From a virus: a stretch of DNA of 42,024 nt. Shown one piece after another: positions 1 through 42,024 of the stretch. Both the position numbers and the translations under genes were made by a program. The stretch lies in IMG/VR virus record IMGVR_UViG_3300011400_000009, positions 1 through 42,024 of that record; one strand, 5' to 3'. Position 1 is the first letter of the stretch; the number at the start of each line of letters is the position of its first letter. The notes under the pieces were generated by a model. It saw only the letters and a list, made by a program, of their open reading frames with translations. It was not told the origin of the DNA and searched no databases.

Positions 1-508
1 TAAACCCCAATGAATTGCGGGCTATGGCGCTCGGGTCACGCATAATCTTACGGGCAAGGGCTGCCCCGGTACCACTTCTAGTACCCGCCACTTCTGCTAC
101 CGATCCAGTGAGTTCAGCCTGTTTGTCCTCATCTGTTACTATGGCGGCATTGGGGTGCACAAATATCCTGAGGCCGGGATACCGATTAGCCTCTGCTCTA
201 AGGATATCCCGGTCAATTATAGCCCCCGCTGATAAGTATACGGGGATGTTTACTCCTCGTAAATACAAATATACAGCAAATGTGGGCAGTTGTTTAAGTA
301 CTATCTTCTCGTCGTCCATGTAGAATGTGTGACCACTGTTTGGCCCTCCACTATAAATACAGCCACCAAACGTGTTGCCGATTTTATGAGTTAGTGCGCA
401 ATCTGCCAACCACGCGCTTAAGGCTCCTTTGCCAGTGGAGCCGAATTGACCATCCACGATACAGTGAACGCCAAATGAGTCAAACAGTGGAATATCATTC
501 ACTGTCAT
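1..508 (-). CDS. purZ: PurZ, 2-aminodeoxyadenylosuccinate synthetase (N-terminal part, cut by window edge)
   Basis: Only about 169 N-terminal codons are inside the window. The family condenses dGMP with aspartate to make the precursor of dZMP, the first step of replacing adenine by 2-aminoadenine in phage DNA; host PurB and kinases finish the route. Seen: a P-loop-like GQFGSTGKG around residue 20, GGPNSGHT around residue 50, a K-Q-L-P segment, an HPNAAIVTDE stretch and GTRSGTGAA. In cellular PurA the first motif is Q-W-G-D-E-G-K-G; here Asp-Glu is Ser-Thr, the substitution I recall from phage PhiVC8 PurZ. The start ATG overlaps the end of the DUF6378 gene by 14 bases and has GGGGGAG upstream. 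It is the last visible gene of the leftward replication operon. A plain phage PurA homologue is the alternative, but the D-to-S change argues against it. Confidence 0.88.
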   Translation of the reverse strand, partial: MTVNDIPLFDSFGVHCIVDGQFGSTGKGALSAWLADCALTHKIGNTFGGCIYSGGPNSGHTFYMDDEKIVLKQLPTFAVYLYLRGVNIPVYLSAGAIIDRDILRAEANRYPGLRIFVHPNAAIVTDEDKQAELTGSVAEVAGTRSGTGAALARKIMRDPSAIARNSLGF

Positions 509-857
509 TTTCCGCTCCCCCAGAAGTAACCATTCCAGCGAGTGCAGAATAACCGGCACCATCGACATAGTTATCCATTCCGTGACCATAAGCTGATCGG
601 GTTATCTTCAACATAACCATCATTTGGGCTACATCGCTGGCGGTCAGTTTATGTTGACCCCGGATAGCCATAACGTGACCCACATAAGTTGTCCACAATT
701 CGGCTATCATGGAGAATGAAGCCTCGGTTTCGCCGTGGCGGTCTGAATTGGCGCTAATGGCAGCCATGGCTTTTTCTAGTATCGCCTTAGCTTTGGGGGT
801 CGCCAAGTCATACTTGTTTTCTTCGACCATGTTGGGTTTGCGGGTGGGTTTCTTCAT
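495..857 (-). CDS. DUF6378-like phage protein
   Basis: A 120-residue helical protein resembling phage proteins of the DUF6378 type: an ILEKAM...HGE..ASFSMIAELW stretch, then SDVAQMMVMLKI and VDGAGYSALAG. The function of the family is not established. I chose the inner ATG at 857 because GGAG lies 3-4 bases upstream and it joins the nuclease stop codon as TAATG; the longer reading frame starts inside the nuclease gene. It lies directly between the nuclease and purZ. Known Z-genome phages carry a nucleotide pyrophosphohydrolase (MazZ or DUF550 type) or DatZ near purZ, so a nucleotide-pool role is possible, but that is inference from position only. Confidence 0.7.
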   Translation of the reverse strand: MKKPTRKPNMVEENKYDLATPKAKAILEKAMAAISANSDRHGETEASFSMIAELWTTYVGHVMAIRGQHKLTASDVAQMMVMLKITRSAYGHGMDNYVDGAGYSALAGMVTSGGAENDSE

Positions 858-1252
858 TATCTCCTCACTGAGTTGTGGAACTGAACTAACTGATCGTGGA
901 ACGACATATCCGTGGTGGTAACTGAGAAGCAATTTTCCGGTTTAACCTCTACTCTAAGCTCGCTGAAATAGTACGTGCCATTCTTATATCCGATCAGCAG
1001 CGGAAACACGTGACCATTAGGATGACCCACGTATCGTATTCGTTCCAGTTCCACGTGCTGGCGTAGTGTTGGCCCGAACGTTGCCCCCCGGATCATCTTT
1101 ACCTCAGTCATAAATACAGGGTACCCAAATGGGATAAGGATTAGGTCAAATATCCCCACCCCATATTGATCTTCGATACGGCGACCGTAACCGCCGGATT
1201 CTTTCATGGACTTGACCATGGCCCGCTTGACGTCTGCTTCTAGGACCATCAT
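857..1252 (-). CDS. Putative PD-(D/E)XK (VRR-NUC-like) endonuclease
   Basis: About 131 residues. The order E..VK..M...GG..RR, then G-x-FD-L-I-L, then EVK and a following LRQ..EL.R helix matches small phage VRR-NUC or resolvase-like nucleases, where D and E-x-K form the metal site. Such enzymes nick or resolve branched DNA during replication and packaging. The ATG at 1252 overlaps the previous stop (ATGA) and has GGCGGAG 8 bases upstream; a longer frame begins at 1282 but has no better site. It lies in the replication operon between the polymerase-side small gene and the DUF6378 gene. Exact subfamily is uncertain. Confidence 0.65.
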   Translation of the reverse strand: MMVLEADVKRAMVKSMKESGGYGRRIEDQYGVGIFDLILIPFGYPVFMTEVKMIRGATFGPTLRQHVELERIRYVGHPNGHVFPLLIGYKNGTYYFSELRVEVKPENCFSVTTTDMSFHDQLVQFHNSVRR

Positions 1253-1545
1253 TCGTCTAGCTCCGCCTTTTGGTACCACCACTCTGTCACCTTGAATGCC
1301 CGATTACCGTCCTCATTGGGTTCTCCCACACTTACTACTTGGGATTTAGGCAGCCAAACTTCGCGCTTGGTCCCCATAACCGGTTCTATCAGGTAAGCTT
1401 TGGCCGTAGTTACCTCGATACGTGCTTCTAAGTCTACTGTTGGGTCACCGGGGCGATAAAACATTTTCTTGGGTCCTGTGTTTGCTAAGTATTTACTACG
1501 CGCTGTAAGATACCGCTTTTGATTGGCGGTCATCTTAGTCATCAT
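1249..1545 (-). CDS. Hypothetical small replication-operon protein
   Basis: 98 residues, basic N-terminus, then a beta-rich part with V-T-T-A-K-A-Y-L-I and EVWLPKSQV, a pattern seen in small phage proteins that sit with replication genes. No catalytic motif is visible. It overlaps the polymerase 3' end by 11 bases and the nuclease start by 4 bases, so it is translationally coupled. Several ATGs are close together (residues 1, 2 and 5); no strong ribosome site decides between them. I do not recognise a function. Confidence 0.6.
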   Translation of the reverse strand: MMTKMTANQKRYLTARSKYLANTGPKKMFYRPGDPTVDLEARIEVTTAKAYLIEPVMGTKREVWLPKSQVVSVGEPNEDGNRAFKVTEWWYQKAELDE

Positions 1546-3325
1546 ATTGGTCTAGCTTGTCTCCGTAGGAAGCTCTGGCCCAATCCTTCCCGCTGCCGAT
1601 GCCGAACGGAATGGGGACCGACAATTTTAATTCATCCGCTACCCCTTCGATAGACTTGATCAGTTCTGCAGGATTGTGGTCTGGTTTTCGCTGCCACAGC
1701 AAACTGTCGTGAATAGTGAGGAGTAGTTGCACATCATCGGGGAATGCATCCTCATATTGGCATGCTCGGAGTAAGCACAGCTTAAGATGCTCTCCCCCCA
1801 CATTCTGTATGATCCGCGACACCGCGCGGTAAGCGAATTTAGGGTCCTCGCAATAGGCTCGGCGGCCCAGAATTGTTTTGACATAGCCCCTCCGCTTAAA
1901 CACGCTCACGGCTTGGTCTTGGAATATCTTGATCATCGGGAACGCATCGGTGAGAAACGTTCGGTGGGCAGATCGCGCCCGTTCTAAGTCCCAACCCATG
2001 TGACCCGCAAGCGTTGGTGCACTCATCATAGTTAGCATGCCCATCGCCATTCTTTTCGCGGTGTCGCGGTCCAGTTTCAGGAGTTGCGACGCCCTGTCGT
2101 GGATATCCATAGTTCCACTTCGATATCCTTCTGTAAGGGCTGGATCACCTGAATAATGAGTGAAAAGTCTCGGCTCTTGTTGCTTAGCATCAGACTCTTC
2201 AATAACGAAACCATCATCGGGAATGACGAGCTTTCGAACGACCCTTCCCACGTCGATGTTCCGTTTAGGGAAAGCTTGTAGGTTAGGGTCTGAGCATGAG
2301 AATCTGACACCGGATACTCCGTAATCGTCCGACTTGGACTGGTTGAGAATTGGGTGGACTCGTCCATTTACGTTATGAGTGTCGATCAGCGGGGCGATAA
2401 AACTATCTCGCGCCTTTTCCAATCGGCGCACCGCTAGAATGGCGTTGCCTATGTTATTGGTTCCTAGCCACTTTTCCGTGAAGGAAATCGCTCCGGCATC
2501 TGTGCGGGCGAATTGGCCATCCGCGTATCCGTTCGTTCGGTACAGTTGCTCTACCGCCTTGGGTGACCGGACGTTAAACCCCGGCACGAACACCTTGCTT
2601 GCCTCGTCGATGGCTGCTTTCACATCGTCAACTACTCTGCCAGCATAATCGGCGTCGATCTTCAAGCCCCGACTATGTATTCTCGCAACATAAGCCAACA
2701 GGTCGCATTCCAACTGCCACGCCTTTCTGAGGCCGTCATTGTCTAGGATGGGCTGTTGCTTAGCCCAAAGTTCTAGGGTAGAGATTCCGTCGCCGGTAGC
2801 GTAATCCACTACAAGGGGGTGGTCGCCCTCAAGCCGCCAGAAGTGTTTCATCTGCTTACGATCAGGAAGACCACCAAATCTGCGGGCTAGTTCGGCGTAT
2901 ACTTCGCTGCCCTTCTTGGCAGTAACTTTGTGGCGGAGGCAACAATCATCTAGACCATACCCCTGCGTAATATCATTAATGATCGCCTCATTGATCATCG
3001 TGTCTTCTAGGGGACTATTAAGTACAATGCCGTGCCGAAGGCTAATACGCAAATCAAAGCCCAAGTTGTGTCCGACAGTTCGGTAGCCATATCGCGCTCT
3101 ATCCTTGAAATTAAGCGCCAATACACGCTCAAATTCATCTCCGTTTGGTATGTTTCCTCCTGCTTCGTGTCGGACCGGGATGTAAACTGAATAATCTTCG
3201 CTGGTGATGACATAACCGCATATCCTACTGTTGATAGTTAGACCATCGGTTTCTGTATCATAGGCAATAACCGGCGCTTCCCTTACGAGCCGCAAGGCTA
3301 ACGCCGGATCAACTAATTGTTCCAT
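1535..3325 (-). CDS. Family A DNA polymerase with 3'-5' exonuclease (DpoZ candidate)
   Basis: 596 residues. Exonuclease motifs: I DTET (D23, E25), II GHNLGFD (D91), III YATGD (Y175, D179). Polymerase motif A is S-D-A-K-Q-Q-E-P-R (D379), motif B R-D-T-A-K-R-M-A-M-G (K424), motif C HDS (D540). There is no 5'-3' nuclease domain, as usual for phage enzymes. Against E. coli Pol I the O-helix has Met at the Phe762 site and Thr at the Tyr766 site, and motif C has Ser where Pol I has Glu883. Start ATG follows GAGGAAATAA. It lies in the same operon as purZ; in PurZ phages a family A polymerase (DpoZ) that prefers dZTP is a known partner, so this is a DpoZ candidate, unproven. Confidence 0.93.
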   Translation of the reverse strand: MEQLVDPALALRLVREAPVIAYDTETDGLTINSRICGYVITSEDYSVYIPVRHEAGGNIPNGDEFERVLALNFKDRARYGYRTVGHNLGFDLRISLRHGIVLNSPLEDTMINEAIINDITQGYGLDDCCLRHKVTAKKGSEVYAELARRFGGLPDRKQMKHFWRLEGDHPLVVDYATGDGISTLELWAKQQPILDNDGLRKAWQLECDLLAYVARIHSRGLKIDADYAGRVVDDVKAAIDEASKVFVPGFNVRSPKAVEQLYRTNGYADGQFARTDAGAISFTEKWLGTNNIGNAILAVRRLEKARDSFIAPLIDTHNVNGRVHPILNQSKSDDYGVSGVRFSCSDPNLQAFPKRNIDVGRVVRKLVIPDDGFVIEESDAKQQEPRLFTHYSGDPALTEGYRSGTMDIHDRASQLLKLDRDTAKRMAMGMLTMMSAPTLAGHMGWDLERARSAHRTFLTDAFPMIKIFQDQAVSVFKRRGYVKTILGRRAYCEDPKFAYRAVSRIIQNVGGEHLKLCLLRACQYEDAFPDDVQLLLTIHDSLLWQRKPDHNPAELIKSIEGVADELKLSVPIPFGIGSGKDWARASYGDKLDQYDD

Positions 3326-5638: not shown

Positions 5639-8176
5639 TTAAATATTCCCAAACCGGGAATTCATTCCGCGCCATGGTTGCGCTCCCATGAATTCCGATG
5701 TGTTAGAACCAAAATCGTCGTCGGTAAATATAAACCTAGGTTCCAGCTCAACGCCAATGGCTTTACTGAATTCTTGGGTTAGAGTTCCAAGCTTGTATTT
5801 AAATCGCCAGAAATTGAGCGAACCAGAACTCCATGTTTCAATTAATCCAGCGCTTTTGAATTCTTCGAATACGTGCCGTGGTTGAGCGTATTTTATCTGC
5901 ATGGACTTAGCAATGTCATCCACCCGCTTATTAAATTCAGGTATGGTGAATGGAGCTGATATGTCTAAATCCTCCCAGATTCGTCCTTCTTCGATGATCG
6001 CCTTAGCCACTCGCCTTGGGTAAGACATATTGGATTCCACGATGTGATTGTCGTCACCGGAAGATAGAGCCGTATTCTCAATGGCGTGGCGATTAACCGG
6101 CGTCGTGTCGAATATGTACATGTAATGCTCTTTGACGTCCATTCGGTGTATGAACGTGTTGAACTCGTCGAAGAATGGCTTAAGTGTAACAGTCCATATC
6201 TTAAATTCTAACTCAGTCTTGTTCATGAAGTCCTTGTCGTAAGTCTTAATATAGAACAATGCCCGGTCTTGTGTGTTCTGCTGCCCAATGTTCATATCAA
6301 ACCGGTTGGACGCAAACACTACGCGCGAGAATATTCGGTAGGTTCGCGCAGATTGGAACTTTTCGGAGCCGCCCATCCTATCCGCTCGGATCAGTTTCTT
6401 AATTTCGTCCGTGCTGGCCTCACTATAGAATTTGGCCTCGTCGATGAACACGAACATCTTGTTGATAAATGGCTCTACGGAGAATGTGCCTTCTAGTATC
6501 TTAGGGGAAGCTGACCCCCACTGGTTTTGGAATAGCTGCTCAAGGAACACGTTGCCGAAGAATGACTTGCCAACTCCCTGCCCGCCGATAAGAACTGGGG
6601 CAATCTGTTGCTTCTGGCCGGGGAATTGTACCGTCCAAGCTAACCATTGCCTAATCCAAGTAGCTTGCCTTTCATTGTCCTGAGTAAGGTACCTAAGTAG
6701 CTGATCCAGCATCCTATTACATTGGGCTAGTAAGTTCGGGTCGGGATTCTTAGTGGGTAGAATTGGCCATCCCCGCCACGTATTGAATACGGTCATAGTT
6801 CCGGGTTCGGAGTCTTGATCGTCGGGGACAACGTTGCCCGCTCGGGATAGACGGAAGATTGACCCCGGCTTGAAATCAGGGTACAAATCCCTTCCACCCA
6901 CTCGCCTTCGTAGCGGCGACGATTCAAACAGCTTGAATACCGGCCTCATCTTTCCGGCTACTTCCATAAGATCATTTCGATGCCTTCGATCCAACTCGGC
7001 TCCGTCGTGAGTAAATCCCGACATTGTATAGAACCGGTCGCGGTCGATATATTTGTCATCTGTTTCGTCATAGATATATCGATCCGCCATCTGAGTGAGC
7101 GGCGAAACATCAACACCCGGCATAAAAACAGTACGAAGCGCGAGCATTGATTCGGTTCCAATGTCAGCTTCAAGTGCAGGCCAACCGGGGATTCGGGCGT
7201 CGGGGTTGTTTTCGAGCTTTTTGATCGCGTCACGGAATACTCTCTTTCTCATGTAGGCTTCTTTGTCGCCTAGTTCGCCGCACATAAAGTCAATCATAGA
7301 TTCGGCTGTCTCAGGCGTTCCCACCGGGCAGTAAGTACCCCGCGACACACCCTCATTATTGTTGATGCCTTGGCTTTCGCGCACCAACCGCGCCAACCAA
7401 CCGGCTACTTTGATGCCTAGATTCTGCCGGGTACCTTCGACCCAGAAGGGTTGTAGCACATACAGGAAGGTGCCGAACGCGATACCCGTTATTAGGGCAG
7501 AGAAATCTGTCTTGCGCGGAGTGGTGGCTGCTATTTCGCCTACTGAGATAGCTGCCTTCCCATCGTGGGTATACCAAACTGATATGTCGTATTCACCCGG
7601 ATTGGTTTTGTGGATATAAATGCTTCCCGGCATCACGGTTTGACGGGCTTCCTTGATGGTATTTTGTGCGTCGGGCGGGAGCGGCCCCATAGAGCGAAGC
7701 TCACACTTATATCGCTTCCCATCCATCCTGAATTCGTTAGGTTCAAATTCCTTCATTACATCATAATTTATAAGGTCCGCTTCGCCTAGCTGCACCATTA
7801 CATGGGACGGAACACCATTAGATAAGCGGCCAAATGAGAACCGTGTATCTATGTTTAGAAATTTGAATGCTCTAATTATGCATTGGTTATAGCGCGGGTC
7901 TTGTGCATCTATGTCTACGTCGAGCCAGCCAAACTGTAGGTTGAAACCTAAGTTCAGCGCCCGCATATCGGGGTTATCTATCCACTCCTGTAGATTGGTA
8001 TCCCGGAATTTTTTCTTATGCCAGTCAGAAGCGAACGGATTCTTGCCTGACATTTGCAGGAAGACAGCACCTACCTGTATAAAGTTATTGTTTACTTGGG
8101 CTGTGATGGCGCGTTGCCGATTAATGATTTGTTCGTCCGCGTCGTTAAACGCGAATCCGCCCTTGACTATTTCCAT
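5639..8176 (-). CDS. Primase-polymerase / SF3 helicase (PrimPol-DUF5906 type)
   Basis: 845 residues. N-terminal archaeo-eukaryotic primase-polymerase domain: K-x-P around residue 45, W-L-D-V-D-I-D (D86, D88) and S-F-G-R...G-V-P-S-H (H125). C-terminal superfamily 3 helicase: Walker A GGQGVGKS (531-538), Walker B M-F-V-F-I-D-E-A (574-581) and a sensor-like F-A-S-N-R-F. This is the usual architecture of phage proteins that prime and unwind DNA at the fork, here working with the family A polymerase at 1535. The start ATG at 8176 follows GGGGAATCATAG and lies 35 bases after the promoter -10. It is a single-gene unit. Cyanophage S-2L, another Z-genome phage, also uses a PrimPol; that is family knowledge, not proof. 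Confidence 0.9.
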   Translation of the reverse strand: MEIVKGGFAFNDADEQIINRQRAITAQVNNNFIQVGAVFLQMSGKNPFASDWHKKKFRDTNLQEWIDNPDMRALNLGFNLQFGWLDVDIDAQDPRYNQCIIRAFKFLNIDTRFSFGRLSNGVPSHVMVQLGEADLINYDVMKEFEPNEFRMDGKRYKCELRSMGPLPPDAQNTIKEARQTVMPGSIYIHKTNPGEYDISVWYTHDGKAAISVGEIAATTPRKTDFSALITGIAFGTFLYVLQPFWVEGTRQNLGIKVAGWLARLVRESQGINNNEGVSRGTYCPVGTPETAESMIDFMCGELGDKEAYMRKRVFRDAIKKLENNPDARIPGWPALEADIGTESMLALRTVFMPGVDVSPLTQMADRYIYDETDDKYIDRDRFYTMSGFTHDGAELDRRHRNDLMEVAGKMRPVFKLFESSPLRRRVGGRDLYPDFKPGSIFRLSRAGNVVPDDQDSEPGTMTVFNTWRGWPILPTKNPDPNLLAQCNRMLDQLLRYLTQDNERQATWIRQWLAWTVQFPGQKQQIAPVLIGGQGVGKSFFGNVFLEQLFQNQWGSASPKILEGTFSVEPFINKMFVFIDEAKFYSEASTDEIKKLIRADRMGGSEKFQSARTYRIFSRVVFASNRFDMNIGQQNTQDRALFYIKTYDKDFMNKTELEFKIWTVTLKPFFDEFNTFIHRMDVKEHYMYIFDTTPVNRHAIENTALSSGDDNHIVESNMSYPRRVAKAIIEEGRIWEDLDISAPFTIPEFNKRVDDIAKSMQIKYAQPRHVFEEFKSAGLIETWSSGSLNFWRFKYKLGTLTQEFSKAIGVELEPRFIFTDDDFGSNTSEFMGAQPWRGMNSRFGNI

Positions 8177-8217
8177 CTATGATTCCCCAATTAGCCCCGC
8201 TGCGGCGAGGCTATTGT

Positions 8218-8246
8218 AGTATAGCACAGCCGGGGGCGGCTGTCAA
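8218..8246 (-). promoter_or_regulatory. Leftward promoter for the PrimPol-helicase gene
   Basis: TTGACA at 8241-8246, 17-base spacer ending TGC, TATACT at 8218-8223. One of the best matches in the window. The leader contains a small hairpin (CCTCGC, loop, GCGGGG) before the ribosome site. Confidence 0.88.
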
Positions 8247-8257
8247 TATCTTAAGCG

Positions 8258-8638
8258 CTATTCAGGAACCGAATCATCCAGTTCCTCAAGTTCCTGCGCG
8301 TCCCCCGGTTCCAGTGGATCGATTGGTTCCAGAGTGCCCAAGTCATCGAAGTCGGTGCTTCCCCAACTGTCCATCCAATCCTGATAGCTAGAACCTTCGT
8401 CGGAGTCGTGCCATTTCTCGGACTTCCCATCATAGTGATCTTGCATCCTCTGTACGATGTTATCACGGAAGTCCCTCACGTTATGGAGAGTATTGTTATA
8501 CGACGAGATTCTTTCGTTCAGTATGGCTATCGCCTCGTTTACTGCGATCGCTGCTTCTTCTATTACACCTGCTTCTCTAGTGAGAGTGGAAATCATCTCG
8601 TTCCGCTCGCCTAAATCCTTTTCAGAGAGTCTCTTCAT
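8258..8638 (-). CDS. Hypothetical coiled-coil protein with acidic tail
   Basis: 126 residues. Residues 1-65 are helical with heptad-like character (ERNEMISTLTREAGVIEEAA, NEAIAILNERI). Residues 70-126 are strongly acidic and proline containing (DDLGTLEPIDPLEPGD, ending D-D-S-V-P-E). The start ATG overlaps the previous stop by four bases and has AAAGGAAC upstream, so it is coupled to the zinc-finger gene. No known domain seen. The acidic tail might imitate nucleic acid or recruit a partner, which is speculation. Confidence 0.6.
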   Translation of the reverse strand: MKRLSEKDLGERNEMISTLTREAGVIEEAAIAVNEAIAILNERISSYNNTLHNVRDFRDNIVQRMQDHYDGKSEKWHDSDEGSSYQDWMDSWGSTDFDDLGTLEPIDPLEPGDAQELEELDDSVPE

Positions 8639-8868
8639 TTCATGTTCCTTTCGGGGTGGAGTTTATTTAGATAGTTATCCAAGTCTCTAGCTGCCGCTTT
8701 CCTTTCCCTCCTTCTGTTCATTTCGTCTGCGCGTCTGCACTTTTCGGAGCAGTAATTCTTATTAGGATTCTTAGTAATGAATTGTACTCTGCACTTTGAA
8801 CAATAAGGCTTTAAAGTTGGCCAGATATTTTTTCCTCTAGCAACTCGGGAATAAGGCATGTACGGCAT
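8635..8868 (-). CDS. Small zinc-finger protein
   Basis: 77 residues from the ATG at 8868, which has TTGGAG 7-8 bases upstream; the frame extends to a GTG at 8892 with no ribosome site. A Y-C-S-K-C pair and, 16 residues later, Y-C-S-E-K-C-R form a CxxC...CxxxC zinc site like MYM/TRASH-type fingers, followed by a very basic helix (R-R-R-E-R-K-A-A-A-R). It probably binds nucleic acid or a protein partner. It lies second in the unit started by the 9901-9929 promoter, between paralogue 2 and the coiled-coil gene. Confidence 0.65.
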   Translation of the reverse strand: MPYMPYSRVARGKNIWPTLKPYCSKCRVQFITKNPNKNYCSEKCRRADEMNRRRERKAAARDLDNYLNKLHPERNMK

Positions 8869-12561: not shown

Positions 12562-12942
12562 TCATTTTCGGCACCGCCATTGTTTGCGACTCACCCATAC
12601 TTTTCGCATCTTGTGTTTAGTGCAAATGTCTTCCACCTTGTCTGGTTTAACAGCTACCTTCGTTGGTGGCGATGGTTCGTGCCAAACAATGTAACTAGGA
12701 AGTTCGAACCATGACACTTGTAACCACATAGGTTGTTCCCAAGGTTCTAACTCTATTCGCGGCATCGGTACAGGTTTAATTCGCTGTACCGATGCCGTTC
12801 GTGGGCCAATATCCTTCAATTTATCAGCCTTATTCGTACTCGCCTTCGCGGGCGGGTGTGTTCCGAGCGAGGCGATCATTACGAGCGCCAATACTACCAA
12901 TACGATACCGATCAGAATCGCTATCAGGAGTTCCTTCCTCAT
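12562..12942 (-). CDS. Membrane-anchored hypothetical protein
   Basis: 126 residues from the ATG at 12942: M-R-K-E then one transmembrane helix (LLIAILIGIVLVVLALVMIA, residues 5-24), then a proline-rich outer part (K-P-V-P-M-P-R-I-E-L-E-P-W) and a basic W-V-S-R-K-Q-W-R-C-R-K end with two late cysteines. The topology fits an inner-membrane anchored periplasmic protein. It overlaps the end of the 12830 gene by 113 bases in another frame. Its ribosome site is weak. The layout recalls nested lysis or spanin pairs, but no lipobox is present. Confidence 0.5.
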   Translation of the reverse strand: MRKELLIAILIGIVLVVLALVMIASLGTHPPAKASTNKADKLKDIGPRTASVQRIKPVPMPRIELEPWEQPMWLQVSWFELPSYIVWHEPSPPTKVAVKPDKVEDICTKHKMRKVWVSRKQWRCRK

Positions 12943-13264
12943 GGGGAGCTTCTGTGATAAGTGGCGCGGCAGGGATAACGAAAGTGCGTAGCATCGCTTG
13001 AAAACTGGCGAATAATGTCTCATATTTCGCTCTCTCCGCTACGGCTTGGTCACGAACGAGTTGCATAGAAGCGACGCGGCTCTCCATGTTGTTAATTTGA
13101 GCCACCTGTGCTTCCGTCACCACCTTAAGGGACGCAATATCATTCTTGCACTTAGCCAATTCCTTAGCTAGAGTATCTCTTTCATCAGCCACCATTTGGT
13201 AATGAACGAGACCCGCTTCTACTGCCGCTTTGCGGTCTTCTCTTAGTCCGTTATTATTAGCCAT
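12830..13264 (-). CDS. Coiled-coil hypothetical protein
   Basis: 144 residues. Residues 25-85 have a long heptad pattern (E-R-D-T-L-A-K-E-L-A-K, V-A-Q-I-N-N-M-E-S-R-V-A, V-A-E-R-A-K-Y-E-T-L), followed by a proline-containing, disordered C-terminus (E-E-G-T-P-D-S-D-S). It follows the zinc-protein gene after three bases. The last 113 bases are shared with the membrane-protein gene. It may be a small structural or scaffolding-type partner; unknown. Confidence 0.5.
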   Translation of the reverse strand: MANNNGLREDRKAAVEAGLVHYQMVADERDTLAKELAKCKNDIASLKVVTEAQVAQINNMESRVASMQLVRDQAVAERAKYETLFASFQAMLRTFVIPAAPLITEAPHEEGTPDSDSDRYRIGSIGARNDRLARNTPAREGEYE

Positions 13265-13267
13265 TCG

Positions 13268-13474
13268 TCAACTCTCCTCTATTGGCTCGTCTGCTTGGTA
13301 ATTTGGATCAGTAAGAACCTCTGGCCGGTATCTGGCCATAACCTTCTTGTGACACTTTACACACGTTCGCGCCAGCGGGATGTTTCTCGCATCGTATTGC
13401 CAAGCTGAGCGATAACCGCTACCGCATGAACAAATAACATGACTACGATCACGTGAGCTTATCACTGACGCCAT
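13268..13474 (-). CDS. Small zinc-ribbon-like protein
   Basis: 68 residues. C-S-C-G-S-G at residues 15-20 and C-V-K-C-H-K-K near residue 38 form a CxC...CxxC zinc site; a basic linker sits between them. The start has GGAGAAATAAA upstream, partly inside the end of the preceding gene. Acidic C-terminus D-E-P-I-E-E-S. Probably nucleic-acid or protein binding; not further recognised. Confidence 0.6.
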   Translation of the reverse strand: MASVISSRDRSHVICSCGSGYRSAWQYDARNIPLARTCVKCHKKVMARYRPEVLTDPNYQADEPIEES

Positions 13475-13475
13475 T

Positions 13476-13697
13476 TTATTTCTCCGCTTTCTCCATGGTT
13501 ACTTTGATACGATCGCCCACTTGGAATTCGGGCGGGTCAAATCCCACGAATAGAGCTTCGTGGGAACCCTCCAATAACATGTAGAATCCTTTGTCTACTT
13601 CACGGAATTTTGCATTCTCACCTGTCCCTTCTTTATACACGCGCGACATGCGCCTTTCTATCAACTTCACTTTGGAATAGAAAGCTATCTTAGCCAT
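13476..13697 (-). CDS. Hypothetical beta-rich small protein
   Basis: 73 residues from the ATG at 13697 (M-A-K-I-A-F-Y-S-K-V-K), GGGAA upstream. The longer frame to 13817 runs through the hairpin at 13717-13755 and is rejected. The strand pattern ending F-Q-V-G-D-R-I-K-V-T-M-E-K resembles a small barrel, but no family is recognised. Confidence 0.5.
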   Translation of the reverse strand: MAKIAFYSKVKLIERRMSRVYKEGTGENAKFREVDKGFYMLLEGSHEALFVGFDPPEFQVGDRIKVTMEKAEK

Positions 13698-13716
13698 AGC
13701 GATTCCCAAAATAAGA

Positions 13717-13755
13717 GCCCGGTGAGGTAAAACGGAGAGTAAAACCCCACCGGGC
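13717..13755 (-). terminator. Hairpin between 13795 and 13697 genes
   Basis: 12-base arms (13717-13728, 13744-13755) around a 15-base loop; the one imperfect pair is G-U only on the minus-strand RNA, and U-rich sequence (CUUAUUUUGG) follows. Likely terminator or attenuator for the leftward operon from 15.9 kb. Confidence 0.6.
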
Positions 13756-13794
13756 CGACTAGGCAGCTCTACCGTCCAAGCTTTGCTGCCCAGC

Positions 13795-14073
13795 CTATTG
13801 TAATTCCAGTACCTCAAGCATAAAGTCTAAGTGATCCACACTCAACAAATCGCCCTTTGGCACAGTTACCACTGGCATGTTCCTAAGCCAATCAGGGCTA
13901 CTTCCAACCCATCCTGTGTGCGTAATCGACTGTTCGAACTCGTCTTGGGTGACTTCGGCTAACACGGCAGCAAACACATGGTCTACATTCTCCATGAGCC
14001 GGATCACTTTCATGCCCATCAGGGATGGCCGCACTGAGTATTGGTCGAATCTGAGTGCGTCTTCTATTCCCAT
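13795..14073 (-). CDS. Hypothetical protein
   Basis: 92 residues, start M-G-I-E-D-A with GGAGG upstream, inside the end of the micro-membrane gene (TAATG link). Contains V-F-A-A-V-L-A-E-V-T-Q-D-E-F and T-G-W-V-G-S-S-P-D-W. No domain recognised. Last gene before the hairpin at 13717-13755. Confidence 0.55.
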   Translation of the reverse strand: MGIEDALRFDQYSVRPSLMGMKVIRLMENVDHVFAAVLAEVTQDEFEQSITHTGWVGSSPDWLRNMPVVTVPKGDLLSVDHLDFMLEVLELQ

Positions 14074-14180
14074 TAGTCGTCCCTCCTATCAGCGTCGGCT
14101 CCAACCGTGAGAATAGCAGCAAGGCCAAAACCAAGAGCAGCACCTAACGGAACGAGCAACAAACACCAATGCCAAGTCAT
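14073..14180 (-). CDS. 35-residue membrane protein
   Basis: Micro-ORF M-T-W-H-W-C with one hydrophobic segment (CLLLVPLGAALGFGLAAIL, residues 6-24) and a charged end D-A-D-R-R-D-D. It overlaps the preceding gene by ATGA and the following one by TAATG, so it is locked in the operon by two start-stop overlaps. Function unknown. Confidence 0.6.
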   Translation of the reverse strand: MTWHWCLLLVPLGAALGFGLAAILTVGADADRRDD

Positions 14181-14416
14181 TTGCGTTTCACTCCCCCTGC
14201 TTTCTGGAATATTTCCTCACGCTCGTCTTCTGTCAACGTGGGCCAGAGTTTGTTGATCCGATCCCACAGTTCGTCCATGGTCCAAGGCTTGTGCTTGTAT
14301 TCACGTCTAGCTATCCACGCCTTCATCACGGTTACTTCATTACTCACGCCATTGCGGAGAAATCTAGGTAAAGGCTTAGTATAACCTAGCGGTCGTCCAC
14401 GTTTTTTCTTGGCCAT
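14177..14416 (-). CDS. Small basic protein with AT-hook-like start
   Basis: 79 residues. Starts M-A-K-K-K-R-G-R-P-L-G, an R-G-R-P core as in AT-hooks that bind the minor groove. The rest is helical: M-D-E-L-W-D-R-I-N-K-L-W, D-E-R-E-E-I-F. Its ribosome site is weak, so it is probably coupled to the HTH gene before it, whose stop is one base away. DNA-binding role is likely by composition, unproven. If the genome carries 2-aminoadenine the minor groove would be altered, which makes this motif worth noting. Confidence 0.55.
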   Translation of the reverse strand: MAKKKRGRPLGYTKPLPRFLRNGVSNEVTVMKAWIARREYKHKPWTMDELWDRINKLWPTLTEDEREEIFQKAGGVKRK

Positions 14417-24001: not shown

Positions 24002-25327
24002 GTGGAGGCTGCTCTAAAAGAAGAAGTACCGCGGGTTACAATACCCTATACGCCGCGCGAGCACTTCAAAGCGTTGCACGCCTCCCCGAAGCGATGGAAT
24101 TTCGTGGTCGCGCACAGGCGCGCGGGAAAAACGGTCGCGCTGTGTAACCAAACCATTCGCAAGGCCCTAGAGAACCCGAGACCGTTCCCGCCGCCAAGGT
24201 ACGGCTATATCGGACCTACCTTTGCTCAGGCTAAGGATTTGGTGTGGGGTTACTTTAAACATTACACGTCGGTACTGCCGAATGTGAAAGTAGTAGAAGG
24301 GGACTTGCAGATCATCCTGTCGAACGGCGCGATGATAAATCTATACGGGGGAAGTGCGGCCTATGAGCGAATGCGTGGATTGTACTTTGATGGAGTCGTT
24401 GCTGACGAATACCCCCTTCTTAATCCTAGTATGCTTGGTTCTGTTATCCGCCCTTGTTTGGCAGATTATCAGGGGTGGGCGGTCATAAGTGGAACGTCCA
24501 ACGGGGATGACCATTTCCATGAGCTAAAGAAGCGCGCGGAGCACGATACTGGTAGTTGGGGTATATTCGACATACCGGTGGACCAGACCGACGCGTTGGA
24601 CCCGGATGAAGTCGCAGAAATGCGGAAGGATATGACGGCGGACGAGTTCGCCCGCGAAATGATGTGCTCATTCGATGCGCCGATCGAAGGCAGCTATTAC
24701 GGCGAAGTGATGAACGAAATCCAGATGGCGGGGCAGATTACTGGTGTTCCGTATGACCCCAATTCGCTAGTCTGGACCGAGTGGGACTTAGGTATCGATG
24801 ACGAAATGGTGATCTGGTTCGGGCAGCGTTGCGGCAGGGAAATCCACTACATCGATTACTACGCTAACACGGGCAAGGGTCTGGACCATTACGTGGCGCA
24901 AATCAAGTCCAAGCCATATGCTTACGGCTGCCACATACTTCCCCATGATATCAAGGCGCGGGAATTGGGTACGGGCGTTAGCCGAAAGGATGTGCTGGAA
25001 CAGATGCTGCCAAATTTGTTCGTCTGTCCGGACCACAAGGTGGAAGACGGGATTAGCGCGACACGCGCTTCGCTGCGTAGATCGTGGTTCGATAAGGTCC
25101 GATGCGAGCCGGGGATAATGGCGCTACGTAACTACCACAAGTCAGGCACAGGAAAGCCCCTCCACAATTGGGCTTCCCATGCTGCCGATGCCAAGCGGAT
25201 AGGTTGCGTGGCGTACAACATGATTCAATCAATGATCGGTGGCTCTAATGTGATAGGTATCGGAGAAGGGCCGCTTAGGAGAAATCTAGCGCGAATGGGT
25301 AGCGGAATGCCAAGGAGAATCCGATGA
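24002..25327 (+). CDS. Terminase large subunit
   Basis: 441 residues from a GTG at 24002. ATPase: Walker A A-H-R-R-A-G-K-T (37-44), Walker B V-V-A-D-E (E136), motif III S-G-T-S-N-G (163-168). Nuclease: E-W-D-L-G-I-D (D262), with later acidic sites (H-D-I-K-A, A-S-H-A-A-D-A-K). It drives DNA into the prohead and cuts the concatemer. Length is usual for the family. Followed by the portal with a 4-base ATGA overlap, so the two are coupled. Confidence 0.93.
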   Translation: MEAALKEEVPRVTIPYTPREHFKALHASPKRWNFVVAHRRAGKTVALCNQTIRKALENPRPFPPPRYGYIGPTFAQAKDLVWGYFKHYTSVLPNVKVVEGDLQIILSNGAMINLYGGSAAYERMRGLYFDGVVADEYPLLNPSMLGSVIRPCLADYQGWAVISGTSNGDDHFHELKKRAEHDTGSWGIFDIPVDQTDALDPDEVAEMRKDMTADEFAREMMCSFDAPIEGSYYGEVMNEIQMAGQITGVPYDPNSLVWTEWDLGIDDEMVIWFGQRCGREIHYIDYYANTGKGLDHYVAQIKSKPYAYGCHILPHDIKARELGTGVSRKDVLEQMLPNLFVCPDHKVEDGISATRASLRRSWFDKVRCEPGIMALRNYHKSGTGKPLHNWASHAADAKRIGCVAYNMIQSMIGGSNVIGIGEGPLRRNLARMGSGMPRRIR

Positions 25328-27555
25328 ATATTCCTGGAATGCCATTAGGTATGGACCCGGAAGCTCTAGACCCCGCAGCCCTCGAAAGTATATTCGGAAA
25401 TAGCCCTGTGGGCGGTTTGGCCGACGCGGTGGTTCCGGAAGAAGCTGATAGTGAGGAAGACTATCAGGCGGTTGTTACTAAGATGATCGACGATGCGAAA
25501 TCGTTTGAAGAGAGCGTCCTTGGACCTAATCGCGAGGATAACTTAGAGTATTTCTACGGCGAAATTCCTGCTCCGGAGGGCGACGGAAAATCCAAAGCGG
25601 TGTCCACGGACTTCCGTGATACTGTTATGGCCATTCTACCATCCCTTATACGTATCTTCACATCATCTGAAAATACTGTGAACTGCAAGCCGAATAGTAA
25701 GGGCCAGGAAGAAATGGCTCGGCAATGCACGGACTACCTCAACTATGTATTTTGGGAGGATAATCCGGGCTTCTTGATACTCCACGATATTATCAAGGAT
25801 GCTCTGCGGTGCAAGACGGGCGTCGTAAGGTGGGAGACTGATAACGATGAAGAGGTAACGGAGGAAGAATACTCTAATATTACCCCCGAACAAGTCCAAA
25901 TGTTGGTCAGTGAGAATCCAAGCCTCAAAGTGCTGGATCAACAAATGGACCCCATGATGCCAGAGGTTATTAAAAGCCTCCGGGTGCGCTTCGTTAAGTC
26001 GAAGCCCCTCCTCAGAATTATGTCGGTGCCTCTGGATGAATTCCGAATATCTCGGAAGGCCAAAGACGTGGATAATGCACCACTCATTGGGCATGATCAA
26101 ATCGTTGACGTGTCCGAACTGGTCAAGGCGGGGTACGATCTAGAGTCATTGAAGGATTTCTTGGGCGCAACTCCGGATAGCGCGTCTTCGGACCGTATCT
26201 TTAGAAATAGCGGAATCGATGAAGGGGATATCTCTGATAACTGGTCCATTCGGTATGGATGTTATTATGTCAGGATCGATAAAGATGGGGATGGAATTTC
26301 GGAATTACGAAAAATCAAAACGGTCGGTGATCAGCACCTTATTCTTCATGACGAAGTTGTTGATTACGCTAATTTTGCTGTTTGGTGTCCTGATCCTGAA
26401 CCTCATACTCTTGTTGGCGACACTCCCGCTGACTTGGTTAAAGATATACAAGTAATTAAAACCAACATGCTTCGGGGTTCGCTGGACTCCCTTGCACAGT
26501 CTATTTGGCCTAGGACGGTGTTCAACCAGACTATTACCAACGCGGACGACGTGTTGAACGACGAAATTGGTGCCCCAATTCGCACTACGGGTTCTCCGAA
26601 CGATGCGGTAATGTCGATTAACCACAACTTCGTCGGCCAGCCCGTTTTCGCTATGTTCGAGGTAATGGAGCAACTTCGTCAATCAAGGACGGGCATTTCG
26701 GATGCGTCGAAGGGCATAGACCCAAGGGCGCTGCAATCCACGGCGGTTACAGGCGTCGACGCTATTGTTCAGGGTGCTCAAGAACGCATCGAACTATGCG
26801 CTCGCATTCTGGCGGAAACCGGAATGAAGCAGTTGTATAAGGGGATGCTACGCGAAATAGTCAAGCACCCTAATCAGGAGCGCACAATTCAGCTTAGGGG
26901 TGAATGGATAGATGTGAATCCATCTACATTTGACCCCACGATGCGTGTGTCGGTCAATCCAACCCTAGGGAAGGGTTCGGATATGACGCGGTTGATGGTT
27001 CTACAGGAAGTGAAGCAGACCCAGACAGCCATTATGACTCAATTTGGGGTGGAAAACCCCCTCTGCGGCGTACAAGAATTCCGAAATACCCTCACGGACA
27101 TTTTGGCCATCGCCAATGTTAAGAACGTAAGCCGGTACTATCGCGATATCGACGCCGCGACTGTTCAGCGCATTGCGGAGACGCCTAAGGAGCCGGATGC
27201 GGCCACTCTTCTCGCTCAGTCGGCTATGGAGAAGAACCGGGTTCAGATGGCCACCGCAATATCCAAGTCCAACTACGAGGATCGGAAGCTGCGGGTGGAT
27301 GACGATTTCCGCCGCGACCAGATGATAGTTAAGGGCATCTTGGATGCGGCGAAGATCGAAGCTCAATTCATGGTGGACGTGAACGAAGAAGAATTCCAGT
27401 CGGAGAATACCCCGGTTCTAAATCTAGAGGTTAACCCGCTTCCGGTTCCTAGTTACGCTCAAGAGTTAATGGGAAATGCCAATGCTCAACAGCCACAACC
27501 CGAACCAGCCCCCGAGCAGCCAATTGCCCCTGACGGAACACAAACGGCTGTCTGA
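25324..27555 (+). CDS. Portal protein (P22-like)
   Basis: 743 residues, the size of P22-type portals. D-F-R-D-T-V-M-A-I-L-P-S-L, then C-T-D-Y-L-N-Y-V-F, I-L-H-D-I-I-K-D-A-L-R-C-K-T-G, and Q-S-R-T-G-I-S-D-A-S-K-G near the middle are typical. The helical C-terminus ends in a Q/P-rich tail. It forms the ring through which DNA enters and to which the tail adaptor binds. Located directly after TerL and before the scaffold. Confidence 0.9.
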   Translation: MNIPGMPLGMDPEALDPAALESIFGNSPVGGLADAVVPEEADSEEDYQAVVTKMIDDAKSFEESVLGPNREDNLEYFYGEIPAPEGDGKSKAVSTDFRDTVMAILPSLIRIFTSSENTVNCKPNSKGQEEMARQCTDYLNYVFWEDNPGFLILHDIIKDALRCKTGVVRWETDNDEEVTEEEYSNITPEQVQMLVSENPSLKVLDQQMDPMMPEVIKSLRVRFVKSKPLLRIMSVPLDEFRISRKAKDVDNAPLIGHDQIVDVSELVKAGYDLESLKDFLGATPDSASSDRIFRNSGIDEGDISDNWSIRYGCYYVRIDKDGDGISELRKIKTVGDQHLILHDEVVDYANFAVWCPDPEPHTLVGDTPADLVKDIQVIKTNMLRGSLDSLAQSIWPRTVFNQTITNADDVLNDEIGAPIRTTGSPNDAVMSINHNFVGQPVFAMFEVMEQLRQSRTGISDASKGIDPRALQSTAVTGVDAIVQGAQERIELCARILAETGMKQLYKGMLREIVKHPNQERTIQLRGEWIDVNPSTFDPTMRVSVNPTLGKGSDMTRLMVLQEVKQTQTAIMTQFGVENPLCGVQEFRNTLTDILAIANVKNVSRYYRDIDAATVQRIAETPKEPDAATLLAQSAMEKNRVQMATAISKSNYEDRKLRVDDDFRRDQMIVKGILDAAKIEAQFMVDVNEEEFQSENTPVLNLEVNPLPVPSYAQELMGNANAQQPQPEPAPEQPIAPDGTQTAV

Positions 27556-27805
27556 TTTCGAAGTGGACGAACGGGCGGCGGAAGCTCAGTCTATATTGGA
27601 TAATTCTGTGTTTGTGGATGCTTTGGATGATGTATATTCCCGAGCACTAGGAACACTACTAAATGCCGATGTGGGTAGCTTGACAGCCAGCACAGCCCAT
27701 GCTACCATGAAAGCCATTCGCGACGTACGAAGTCAGTTGGAACAGTACATAACTGACAAAAAGATGCGTACCAAGTTTAGTAAGGGGGATAGTAATGTCG
27801 GATGA
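27476..27805 (+). CDS. Hypothetical protein overlapping portal and scaffold
   Basis: 109 residues from the ATG at 27476 (GGGAA before it; a second ATG two codons later). It overlaps the portal tail by 80 bases in another frame and the scaffold by 11 bases. Helical (E-R-A-A-E-A-Q-S-I-L-D-N, V-R-S-Q-L-E-Q-Y-I). Similar small proteins follow portals in related podoviruses; possibly a head assembly factor. Its second half carries the promoter-like site at 27680. Confidence 0.6.
   Translation: MPMLNSHNPNQPPSSQLPLTEHKRLSDFEVDERAAEAQSILDNSVFVDALDDVYSRALGTLLNADVGSLTASTAHATMKAIRDVRSQLEQYITDKKMRTKFSKGDSNVG
27680..27708 (+). promoter_or_regulatory. Intragenic promoter-like site before scaffold and capsid
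   Basis: TTGACA at 27680-27685, 17-base spacer ending TGC, TACCAT at 27703-27708, the same layout as the intergenic promoters. It lies 87 bases before the scaffold ATG and could boost scaffold and capsid transcription. Confidence 0.65.
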
Positions 27806-28916
27806 AGGTATAGATAAAGCTGCTCAGGCGTTTGACGCCGTTATGAAGTCTGATGCTAAGGCCCCTACCAAGACTCCGAGCAATATCGATCGTTCCGAAG
27901 GCCCTCCCCAAGCTTTATTCAAGAATGTTGGAAATTTAGACCCCGACGCTGAGGCGAAGGGCGGCGGAGACGATGAACCTGATCCGGAGGAACTTATTTA
28001 TGGCGATCCCAAAAAAGGTAAGGCCGATACAGGGGATGCTGGCGAAGGAGATGGATCAGATAGCGAAGGCGATGACGACGCCCCCGACGATGATGCTGAA
28101 AAGCCCGGTGATGACGACGCCGACAAAGAAGGGGCCGAAGAAGAAGAAGCTGTCCTCGCCCAAAAAGTTGAAGTTACCGTCGATGGGGAGCCTGTTGAAG
28201 TTTCCGTAAAGGAAGCTCTTGAGGGCTACATTCGTACTGAGACGTTCCACAGGCGAATGAACCAGTTGGACGAGGCGAAGAAGATAGTTCGCCGCGCCGC
28301 TGCCGATGCTGTTCAGAATTACGAATACTCCATGAACATCGGTAAGCAGATGGAAGCCCACATGGAGCAGATGATTCCCAAAGAGCCAAATTGGGATGAA
28401 GAATTCGCTAAGGACCCTGTTGCTGCGCGGAGGTTACAAGCGTACTACGAGAAGGCAAATGGTTTCCGTACGCAGTTACAGAGTCAGATGAAGGAAGTCG
28501 CCGCTAAGGCGAATGAGTCGCAGATGGCTCAGCTACAAGCCTTCGCTGAGGAAGAAGGCATGAAGTTCGAGTCCATGAATCGCAAACAGTGGTCGGACCC
28601 CAAGAGAAAGGCCAAGGACCTGCATTCGATGCGGAGAACTGGTCTAACGGCGGGATTCACCGAGGAGGAATTGTCGCAGGTATACGACAGTAGGATGCTT
28701 CAGGTTCTTTTGAAGGCATCTAAGTATGATCGAATGATGGCTGCTAAGCCCAAGCCAGTTGTTCGGCCACAAGGCAAGCCGATTACTCCGGGAGCGGGAA
28801 GCGCTAAGTCGCGAACGGCTCAAAGTGGGGTTACTTCGGCAATGAAGAGGCTCAACAAAACCGGCAGCATCGATGATGCCGCCGTAGTGTTCGACCAGAT
28901 CATTGCAAGGAGATAA
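27795..28916 (+). CDS. Scaffold protein
   Basis: 373 residues. Residues 50-115 are extremely acidic (G-D-D-E-P-D-P-E-E, runs of D and E). K-V-E-V-T-V-D-G-E-P-V-E-V, then A-L-E-G-Y-I-R-T-E-T-F-H-R-R-M, then long helices. The end is basic, as in capsid-binding tails. Acidic, helical proteins just before the major capsid gene are scaffolds in this virus group. The capsid ATG lies two bases after its stop. Confidence 0.85.
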   Translation: MSDEGIDKAAQAFDAVMKSDAKAPTKTPSNIDRSEGPPQALFKNVGNLDPDAEAKGGGDDEPDPEELIYGDPKKGKADTGDAGEGDGSDSEGDDDAPDDDAEKPGDDDADKEGAEEEEAVLAQKVEVTVDGEPVEVSVKEALEGYIRTETFHRRMNQLDEAKKIVRRAAADAVQNYEYSMNIGKQMEAHMEQMIPKEPNWDEEFAKDPVAARRLQAYYEKANGFRTQLQSQMKEVAAKANESQMAQLQAFAEEEGMKFESMNRKQWSDPKRKAKDLHSMRRTGLTAGFTEEELSQVYDSRMLQVLLKASKYDRMMAAKPKPVVRPQGKPITPGAGSAKSRTAQSGVTSAMKRLNKTGSIDDAAVVFDQIIARR

Positions 28917-28918
28917 CC

Positions 28919-29923
28919 ATGGCCAAAGTTACGAGTGCCTTCACCACTTACGATGCGAAGGCGAACAGGGAAGACCTGTCGAATTCTATCTACAACATCG
29001 ACCCCTTCGACACTCCTGTAATGTCGATGGCTCGCCGTCGGAACGCCAAAAACCGCACATTCGATTGGCAGACCGAATTTCTACCTACCGTCGATCCGAA
29101 TAACGCTCAGATCGAAGGTTTTGAGCTTACCCGGATGGCGTCAACGCCAACCGCACGTCTTACCAACGTGACGCAGATTTCCAAGCGCGATGCGACCGTT
29201 TCCGGATCGCAGGAGGCTTCGGATGCGGCTGGTAAGGGCTCCGAAATGGGCCACCAGATGGCAATGTCGTCCAAGGTGCTCAAGTCCGATATGGAAGCAA
29301 TTATGTCGGGACGACAAGCACGTGACGATGGTGCCGATGCAACGGCCCGTAAGACCGAAGCTATCGCTCACTGGCTCGGGCGAGCGGTTAACAAGGCGGG
29401 TGCTGTATCCACCACCGATCTTCTTGGTGGTGCGGTAGTTGGGGTGCACACTGGTCTTCCGACAACTGCAACGATGGCCTTCGCCGCTGTTGCAGGTGCT
29501 TCTCAAGTGGCGGTAACTGAGCAGATGCTCGGTGATGCCATGCAGAAGGCATACACCAACGGTGGCAAGCCCGACAATTGGGTCGTTCCACCGGGCATTA
29601 AGCGGACTGTCAGCACCTTCGAAGGTCGTGGCATTTCGCAGGTACTGGTTGGTAAGACCGAAGTGGTTGCAACGGTGGATATCATTGCCACCGATTTCGG
29701 TCGCGTCAAGGTGATGCCGTCGCTCTGGATACCTTCGGATATTGCCCTCCTGTTGGATTCAGACTTCGTTGCTGTCGCCTTCTTCCGTAATTTCCGTCAA
29801 TTCCCGATTGCAAAGGTCGGTGATGCGGAAACTCGCCTCATCCTTTCGGAATGGGGCGTCGAGATGCGGAACCCGCTGGCGCACATTCTGTTCAACGGCG
29901 TCAAGCAAGGCGCTGTTATCTAG
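28919..29923 (+). CDS. Major capsid protein (SU10 type)
   Basis: 334 residues. N-terminal D-L-S-N-S-I-Y-N-I-D-P-F-D-T-P-V, M-A-R-R-R-N-A-K-N-R-T-F-D-W-Q, and Q-I-S-K-R-D-A-T-V-S-G, then late segments R-V-K-V-M-P-S-L-W and R-N-F-R-Q-F-P-I-A-K, match the phage SU10-type head proteins (HK97 fold). It forms the shell. Its end is followed by a strong terminator, so the capsid unit is separable from the tail genes. Confidence 0.92.
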   Translation: MAKVTSAFTTYDAKANREDLSNSIYNIDPFDTPVMSMARRRNAKNRTFDWQTEFLPTVDPNNAQIEGFELTRMASTPTARLTNVTQISKRDATVSGSQEASDAAGKGSEMGHQMAMSSKVLKSDMEAIMSGRQARDDGADATARKTEAIAHWLGRAVNKAGAVSTTDLLGGAVVGVHTGLPTTATMAFAAVAGASQVAVTEQMLGDAMQKAYTNGGKPDNWVVPPGIKRTVSTFEGRGISQVLVGKTEVVATVDIIATDFGRVKVMPSLWIPSDIALLLDSDFVAVAFFRNFRQFPIAKVGDAETRLILSEWGVEMRNPLAHILFNGVKQGAVI

Positions 29924-41360: not shown

Positions 41361-42024
41361 ATGCCCGCATTTATATTGAAAGGCCCAGACGGTAAGGAAT
41401 ACGATGTTGAAGCTCCCGACGCAGACTCGGCTGCCAAGGAGTTCGCTAAATACCGTCAAACACAACTCAACCAACAGTATGCCGAAGAAGGCAAGAAAAT
41501 GCCGCCTTGGCAAATTCCGTTGGAAACGGCTCGGGACGTTGCTACAGTTGGAGCGGATACCCTTACTCTCGGGTTTGGGACTAAGGCCGTTAAGGGTTTA
41601 TTCGGCGGCGAACCCGAAATGGACATTGAGGCGCGACGTGCCCGAATGCCATATTCGGCCCCGGCAATAGATATCGGGGTGATGGCGGGGGCACTTCCTA
41701 CTGCCGTGCCAAGGGCTGTGGCTAAGTTGGGTGGAGGGCCAGCGGCTCGTGTTATTACGGGGACCGGAGCGGCAGCTACGGAAGGCGCGGTGGTTGGCGG
41801 GTTAGAAGCTGCTGGCCACGATAAACCTGTAGGACCGGGTGTTATGACCGGTATGCTCGGGGGAGCAGCGGGACAACAAGTAGGTACGGTTATAAATAAG
41901 GCGGACCGAATAATTCGCGGCATCGACGATGTGCCTAAGGGTATTCGATCAAATATGGCGGTGCTCCCAAAAAATCCTAGCCCATCCGATAGAGTAACTG
42001 TGGCACAGAACGAAGCGGCTTCCA
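41361..42024 (+). CDS. Ejection-type virion protein (N-terminal part, cut by window edge)
   Basis: About 221 codons are visible from the ATG at 41361 (AAGGT upstream). Starts M-P-A-F-I-L-K-G-P-D-G-K-E-Y-D-V-E-A-P, a short strand domain common at the start of phage ejection proteins. Then G/A-rich hydrophobic helices follow (I-D-I-G-V-M-A-G-A-L-P, G-V-M-T-G-M-L-G-G-A-A-G), as in membrane-crossing ejection proteins. The right end is cut off, so a catalytic domain cannot be judged. Confidence 0.65.
   Translation, partial: MPAFILKGPDGKEYDVEAPDADSAAKEFAKYRQTQLNQQYAEEGKKMPPWQIPLETARDVATVGADTLTLGFGTKAVKGLFGGEPEMDIEARRARMPYSAPAIDIGVMAGALPTAVPRAVAKLGGGPAARVITGTGAAATEGAVVGGLEAAGHDKPVGPGVMTGMLGGAAGQQVGTVINKADRIIRGIDDVPKGIRSNMAVLPKNPSPSDRVTVAQNEAAS

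Follow-up and report, generated by a model that had tools for sequence, protein, structure and literature searches.

The left edge of IMG/VR record IMGVR_UViG_3300011400_000009 raises the question of whether this virus carries 2-aminoadenine (Z) in place of adenine in its DNA, given that an original prediction had placed there a purZ gene in one operon with a family A DNA polymerase. The whole linear virus contig of 42,024 bp is referred to here as the window. It is read as a near-complete Wolominvirus-like podophage genome with a predicted working Z pathway, with a probability of about 0.72. The gene content is best read as that of a Z genome, because the left-edge gene encodes PurZ and not the cellular PurA, and is followed by a gene for MazZ-2; the phage is a well-supported candidate on its gene sequences. 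The pathway would be a variant one, in a lineage represented by Ochrobactrum phage vB_OspP_OH (MT028492, Wolominvirus OH; hereafter OH), with datZ missing, the PurZ donor pocket altered, and a polymerase that is not a DpoZ by known signatures.

The window holds the first 169 of the 350 codons of purZ (positions 2-508, minus strand), open at the contig end. As predicted, the PurA-type nucleotide loop with Asp-Glu changed to Ser-Thr, GQFGSTGKG, is read at about 451-425, followed by GGPNSGHT (about 349-326) and HPNAAI (about 157-140). The likeness to phiVC8 was also borne out, its PurZ having LQFGSTGKG at the same place where E. coli PurA has GDEGKG; Ser24 stands at the place of the catalytic Asp13 of PurA. 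Against the NCBIfam PurZ model the fragment scores 81 bits and the full protein 201 (E 2e-59); the nearest PurA model yields 61 and 103.5 bits. The PHROG match is 1211 ('2-aminooxy adenylosuccinate synthetase'), and the PDB matches are the PurZ of S-2L (7odx, the best) and of phiVC8 (6fko). The phylogeny of PurZ, PurA and PurZ0 that had been proposed as a check was built from 36 sequences, with long branches and without archaeal PurA; in it the full gene sits with the PurZ proteins and separately from both PurZ0 and the PurA of E. coli. One group (100/97) unites the window PurZ with those of OH and of 20 relatives from metagenomes, beside the PurZ of phiVC8, S-2L, BUCT555 and SH-Ab (branches 90/87 to 93/91). 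The left-edge gene is thus a PurZ (2-aminoadenylosuccinate synthetase), not cellular PurA. It is under purifying selection, with a ratio of nonsynonymous to synonymous substitution rates (dN/dS, computed for PurZ only) of 0.06-0.16 in close pairs with unsaturated dS.

Beside these, the phage protein MaF61 adjoins the window PurZ clade on a very long branch. Two proteins named 'PurA', from Streptomyces phage Keanu (L056) and Bacillus phage vB_BpsS-140 (L054), also have Ser at the Asp13 place; the Keanu protein groups with PurZ0, and that of vB_BpsS-140 is placed apart from the main groups of PurZ. A prophage search of bacterial genomes gave a single match, a PurZ relative (40% identity) on the 11.8-kb contig L184 (JAHFKN010000011.1), binned to a Candidatus Gottesmanbacteria metagenome-assembled genome.

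The remainder of purZ lies on contig L002 (IMGVR_UViG_3300038441_002542, 4,162 bp), whose two ends overlap those of the window at 100% identity (positions 1-695 and 41446-42024), so that the genome is closed at 44,912 bp. L002 carries the complete purZ (L002:188-1240, 350 amino acids), a MazG-like gene (L002:1231-1554) that overlaps the end of purZ, an open reading frame (ORF) of 55 amino acids (L002:1520-1687), and a SNF2-type helicase gene (L002:1750-3135). When aligned with phiVC8 MazZ-2, the MazG-like protein is seen to have all four acidic metal ligands (E55, E58, E75 and D78) invariant, and it weakly matches MazG-like structures; its gene is identified as that of a MazZ-2. End-to-start overlaps on one strand join the genes between purZ and the polymerase, and purZ, mazZ and the small ORF overlap likewise. 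Because neighbouring genes overlap, a single operon from polymerase through helicase is likely.

The sequence basis for the pathway is the two enzymes, PurZ and MazZ-2, with their active sites, the proposed reactions being taken from characterised homologues. MazZ-2 would cut deoxyguanosine triphosphate (dGTP) to the monophosphate (dGMP), PurZ would join dGMP and aspartate to N6-succino-2-amino-dAMP, host enzymes would complete the triphosphate of Z (dZTP), and the phage polymerase would place Z opposite T. Conservation was counted over 67 clade PurZ proteins, in S-2L numbering. The P-loop Gly and Lys are invariant, as are N49, G51, H52, T53, T132, R146, Q190, T205, R240, V241, T273-T276 and R280. 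Of these, N49, T132, R146, Q190, T205, R240 and V241 contact dGMP, and T273-T276 make up a tip (PMC8342488). The window PurZ and most of the clade have other residues in place of S-2L A50, G130, S131, Y203 and C204. A phage-captured, cellular-type PurA that boosts the supply of deoxyadenosine triphosphate (dATP) for ordinary DNA would share the fold family, but Ser replaces Asp13 in all 67 proteins, and this, the position in the PurZ tree and the MazZ-2 partner make that explanation barely credible.

Several observations temper the reading of a working Z pathway. The window PurZ, at 201 bits, and that of OH, at 241, fall short of the curated 300-bit cut-off of the NCBIfam PurZ model (NF038379); PurZ is still the best family, and the shortfall of both points to a divergent PurZ branch. 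Searches for datZ by tblastn and by profile, also at loose thresholds, gave no match, whether in the window, in L002 or in the closed genome, and the full published Z-cluster is to that extent incomplete. Work on S-2L reported that Z content falls when the cluster is incomplete (PMC8342488). Finally, avoidance of A-containing 6-bp palindromes is not diagnostic: the values are 0.89-0.94 in known Z phages, 0.81 in the window and 0.71 in its purZ-less relative L152. Weaker avoidance was rejected as a Z signature, since the ordinary Erwinia phage RF1 equals the known Z phages at 0.93.

With datZ missing, dATP would be excluded by the polymerase or by another phage gene, or exclusion would be incomplete, in which case Z may replace only part of A. 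The last of these, in which dATP persists and virion DNA is a mixture of A and Z, agrees with the absence of datZ and with the lowered substitution seen when incomplete Z-clusters were expressed in E. coli (PMC8342488). The repeated absence of datZ together with the strong selection on purZ suggests, on the other hand, that dATP is handled otherwise, and a partial substitution is considered rather unlikely.

The absence of datZ is not peculiar to the window: it is missing as well from 11 other purZ-bearing records that were searched end to end. In OH (p35) and many relatives datZ follows mazZ. Among the 22 polymerase entries of the window's subclade, the 55-amino-acid ORF lies between mazZ and the helicase gene in 17 and datZ in five; the two never occur together, nor are both ever absent. 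Which of the two is carried differs even between sister genomes: L003/L114 (support 100), L071/L110 (99) and the window/L022 (93). Parsimony on the polymerase tree requires eight changes of datZ, at least five of them forced by starred branches. Since the DatZ proteins of the subclade form one group (support 80), datZ seems to be the ancestral state there, with the ORF as its apparent replacement. PurZ phages were described as 'mostly' having DatZ (PMC12884076); what is new is that many members of this lineage are without it, and that datZ and the ORF are mutually exclusive at one spot in the window's subclade.

This exclusivity, with sister pairs differing, is what would suggest that the ORF, or the DUF6378 protein encoded directly upstream of purZ, does the task of DatZ, directly or through a host enzyme. 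The ORF has strictly conserved W, W, R, H, E, R and W residues. However, searches for its family, fold and PDB matches gave none, DUF6378 genes occur in datZ-bearing and purZ-less genomes as well, and nine entries outside the window's subclade, L152 among them, have neither datZ nor the ORF. Such a substitute for DatZ is quite improbable. The predicted model of the ORF product is a single long helix and has no PDB match, and a ribbon-helix-helix regulator was rejected on these grounds.

A family A polymerase gene is present near purZ, as had been claimed (positions 1535-3325, minus strand), and encodes 3'-5' exonuclease and polymerase domains related to phiVC8 DpoZ (28-29% identity to phiVC8-type DpoZ). 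The claimed pairing of purZ with dpoZ was not supported. On the NCBI DpoZ model the window polymerase scores 251 bits and four ordinary phage PolA (Erwinia RF1, Synechococcus JY38, Pseudomonas Ab18 and Lydia) 264-319 bits; the model score does not discriminate, and a DpoZ call by hidden Markov model was rejected. Of the features described for phiVC8 DpoZ (PMC8599892), insertions 2 and 3 are absent, and L455, F459 and G548 are replaced by Met, Thr and Ser. The polymerase clade is sister to phiVC8 DpoZ with weak support (76/66). By known sequence signatures, the protein is a predicted phiVC8-related PolA that is not callable as DpoZ.

Motif B of this polymerase is AKRMAMGMLTMM; Thr432 occupies the position of Tyr766, and Ser503 that of Asn845. 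In 69 of the 70 clade polymerases (at least 39% identity), the position of the otherwise strict Tyr766 has Thr or Ser, and that of Asn845 has Ser. A purZ gene lies near the clade polymerase in all contigs that are long enough, with one exception, L152 (IMGVR_UViG_3300047471_000079, 44,213 bp), which is also the polymerase that differs, with Asn at both places and residues 425 and 503 as in ordinary PolA. The same positions are odd in phiVC8 DpoZ (PMC8599892). These data are consistent with a special form of the preferred reading, in which Z fully replaces A without DatZ through a strongly dZTP-selective polymerase whose active-site set (Tyr766 to Thr/Ser, Phe762 to Met/Leu, Asn845 to Ser) would be a third solution beside the phiVC8-type and Wayne-type DpoZ. 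Given that L152 is the only purZ-less genome and the longest branch of its group, and that the DpoZ model cannot tell Z polymerases from ordinary ones, this form is held tentatively, at somewhat less than even odds. Adenine may be excluded from Z genomes by DatZ, by the polymerase or by both, and this lineage bears on that question.

L152 is the sole clade polymerase record with enough flank that lacks PurZ, and no purZ or datZ was found anywhere in its 44,213 bp. Its polymerase gene lies at 6974-8788 and its helicase gene at 12782-14200, the latter directly after the DUF6378 gene, so that purZ, mazZ and datZ are missing as a block. Because L152 is placed inside the purZ-bearing polymerase tree, the absence is probably a loss, with the polymerase retained. 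The site GANTC, that of CcrM in Alphaproteobacteria, does not occur in L152 (0 versus 108 expected), and in its purZ-bearing sisters it occurs 183-194 times (observed/expected, O/E, 0.84-0.91). The window has 123 (O/E 0.80), but O/E is 0.33 in OH and 0.41 in L142. For this one genome, the pattern would fit a purge of GANTC by L152 with ordinary DNA and no such need in relatives with Z-DNA, though the wider palindrome comparison is not diagnostic.

The other change concerns the phosphate donor of PurZ. In S-2L PurZ, N305, F306 and Q308 (N297 in phiVC8) bind the adenine of the donor, and Q308 is said to clash with a 2-amino group (PMC8342488). This ATP-type pocket (N305, F306, Q or N308) is not found in the window PurZ, which has S-H-M-D instead; S/T-H-x-D occurs in 30 of the 67 proteins, namely the window and 29 relatives. 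OH, like most relatives that fall outside the window's subclade, has N-F-x-N. An Asp at the donor-base position is the state of PurA (TKLD in E. coli) and of PurZ0. Guanosine triphosphate (GTP) is the phosphate donor of both these enzymes. The introduction of a published account gives GTP for PurA and ATP for PurZ, and one later sentence on the preferences of PurZ0 and PurZ reads reversed (PMC12884076). The switch of the predicted ATP-base pocket to the Asp type of PurA and PurZ0 is new, and the PurZ of the window's subclade probably uses a guanine nucleotide (GTP or dGTP) and not ATP, which predicts a measurable cofactor change. A reversion of this kind, if true, would run contrary to the one-way course from PurZ0 to ATP-using PurZ. 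The whole combination, namely a fully substituted Z genome without DatZ, a dZTP-selective PolA of a third type, a PurZ reverted from ATP to a guanine donor and a cluster-deleted sister as natural control, is unlikely to be right in every part.

The lineage is not wholly new, since OH, the nearest isolate, is already listed as a MazZ-2 Z-cluster phage (PMC8342488); its describers had proposed nucleotide salvage (PMC7139368). OH shares the order PrimPol, polymerase, DUF6378, purZ, mazZ and helicase, with 56-63% identity in PurZ and 61% in the polymerase. It differs in having datZ (p35), where the window genome has the 55-amino-acid ORF, and in the N-F-x-N pocket. The Z-clusters of phiVC8 and SH-Ab 15497 resemble that of the window in Ser for Asp13, in a PolA with exonuclease and, in phiVC8, in MazZ-2, and differ in PurZ (31-33% identity), in the polymerase (28-29%; insertions 2 and 3, and F459 where the window has Thr) and in datZ. 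Cyanophage S-2L (datZ, mazZ-1, purZ and PrimPol) has the same PurZ dGMP pocket and a PrimPol-type protein, whereas the window has MazZ-2 and not MazZ-1, has PolA and lacks datZ. With the PurZ0 phages (Wayne and Ghobes, with DutZ/DmtZ) the window PurZ shares the Asp at the donor-base position, but it groups with PurZ, and DutZ was not found in the closed genome.

Loss of the helper gene datZ is seen among the relatives, so that the Z pathway would be more flexible than described. In phages selected for having both datZ and purZ, mazZ has been described as invariably sitting between the two (PMC8342488). L074, L076 and L082, which fall outside the window's subclade, retain datZ but show no recognisable mazZ; L075 likewise shows none, and in all four datZ directly follows purZ. 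Within one syntenic background there are genomes that have naturally lost datZ, apparently mazZ, or the entire cluster (L152), so that the contribution of each gene is directly testable. Diverse Z enzymes are wanted for the production of ZTGC-DNA.

Among the neighbouring genes on the minus strand, the all-helical DUF6378 protein (495-857; Pfam PF19905, E 2e-19) overlaps the start of purZ and is present in nearly all members, L152 included. Its reading as a MazG-type enzyme was rejected, profile and fold support both being absent (MazZ 7ody only at E 5.9). The PHROGs label 'phosphofructokinase' on families that match it looks like a misannotation. A probable PD-(D/E)XK-type nuclease (857-1282, weak PHROG endonuclease match) occupies the place of the 'putative nuclease' p30 of OH, and the L152 protein at this place weakly matches PDDEXK_9. 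Next to it lies a gene for a small homologue of OH p29 (1249-1545). The protein predicted to resemble a single-stranded DNA-binding protein (SSB) belongs to the Pam3 gp34 family (PF23977; 3485-4321) and is at most a putative SSB. Also located were genes for a primase-polymerase/helicase type replication protein (5639-8176; OH p22 homologue, 52% identity, its domain named in PMC7139368) and, on the plus strand, for terminase, portal, scaffold and major head protein (24002-29923); a DNA-ejection protein gene is also present. In the closed map, six-base palindromes of G and C only are strongly avoided (36 versus 126 expected), with CCCGGG, GGCGCC, CGGCCG, GCCGGC and GGGCCC absent, and the same avoidance is seen in the ordinary phage Ab18.

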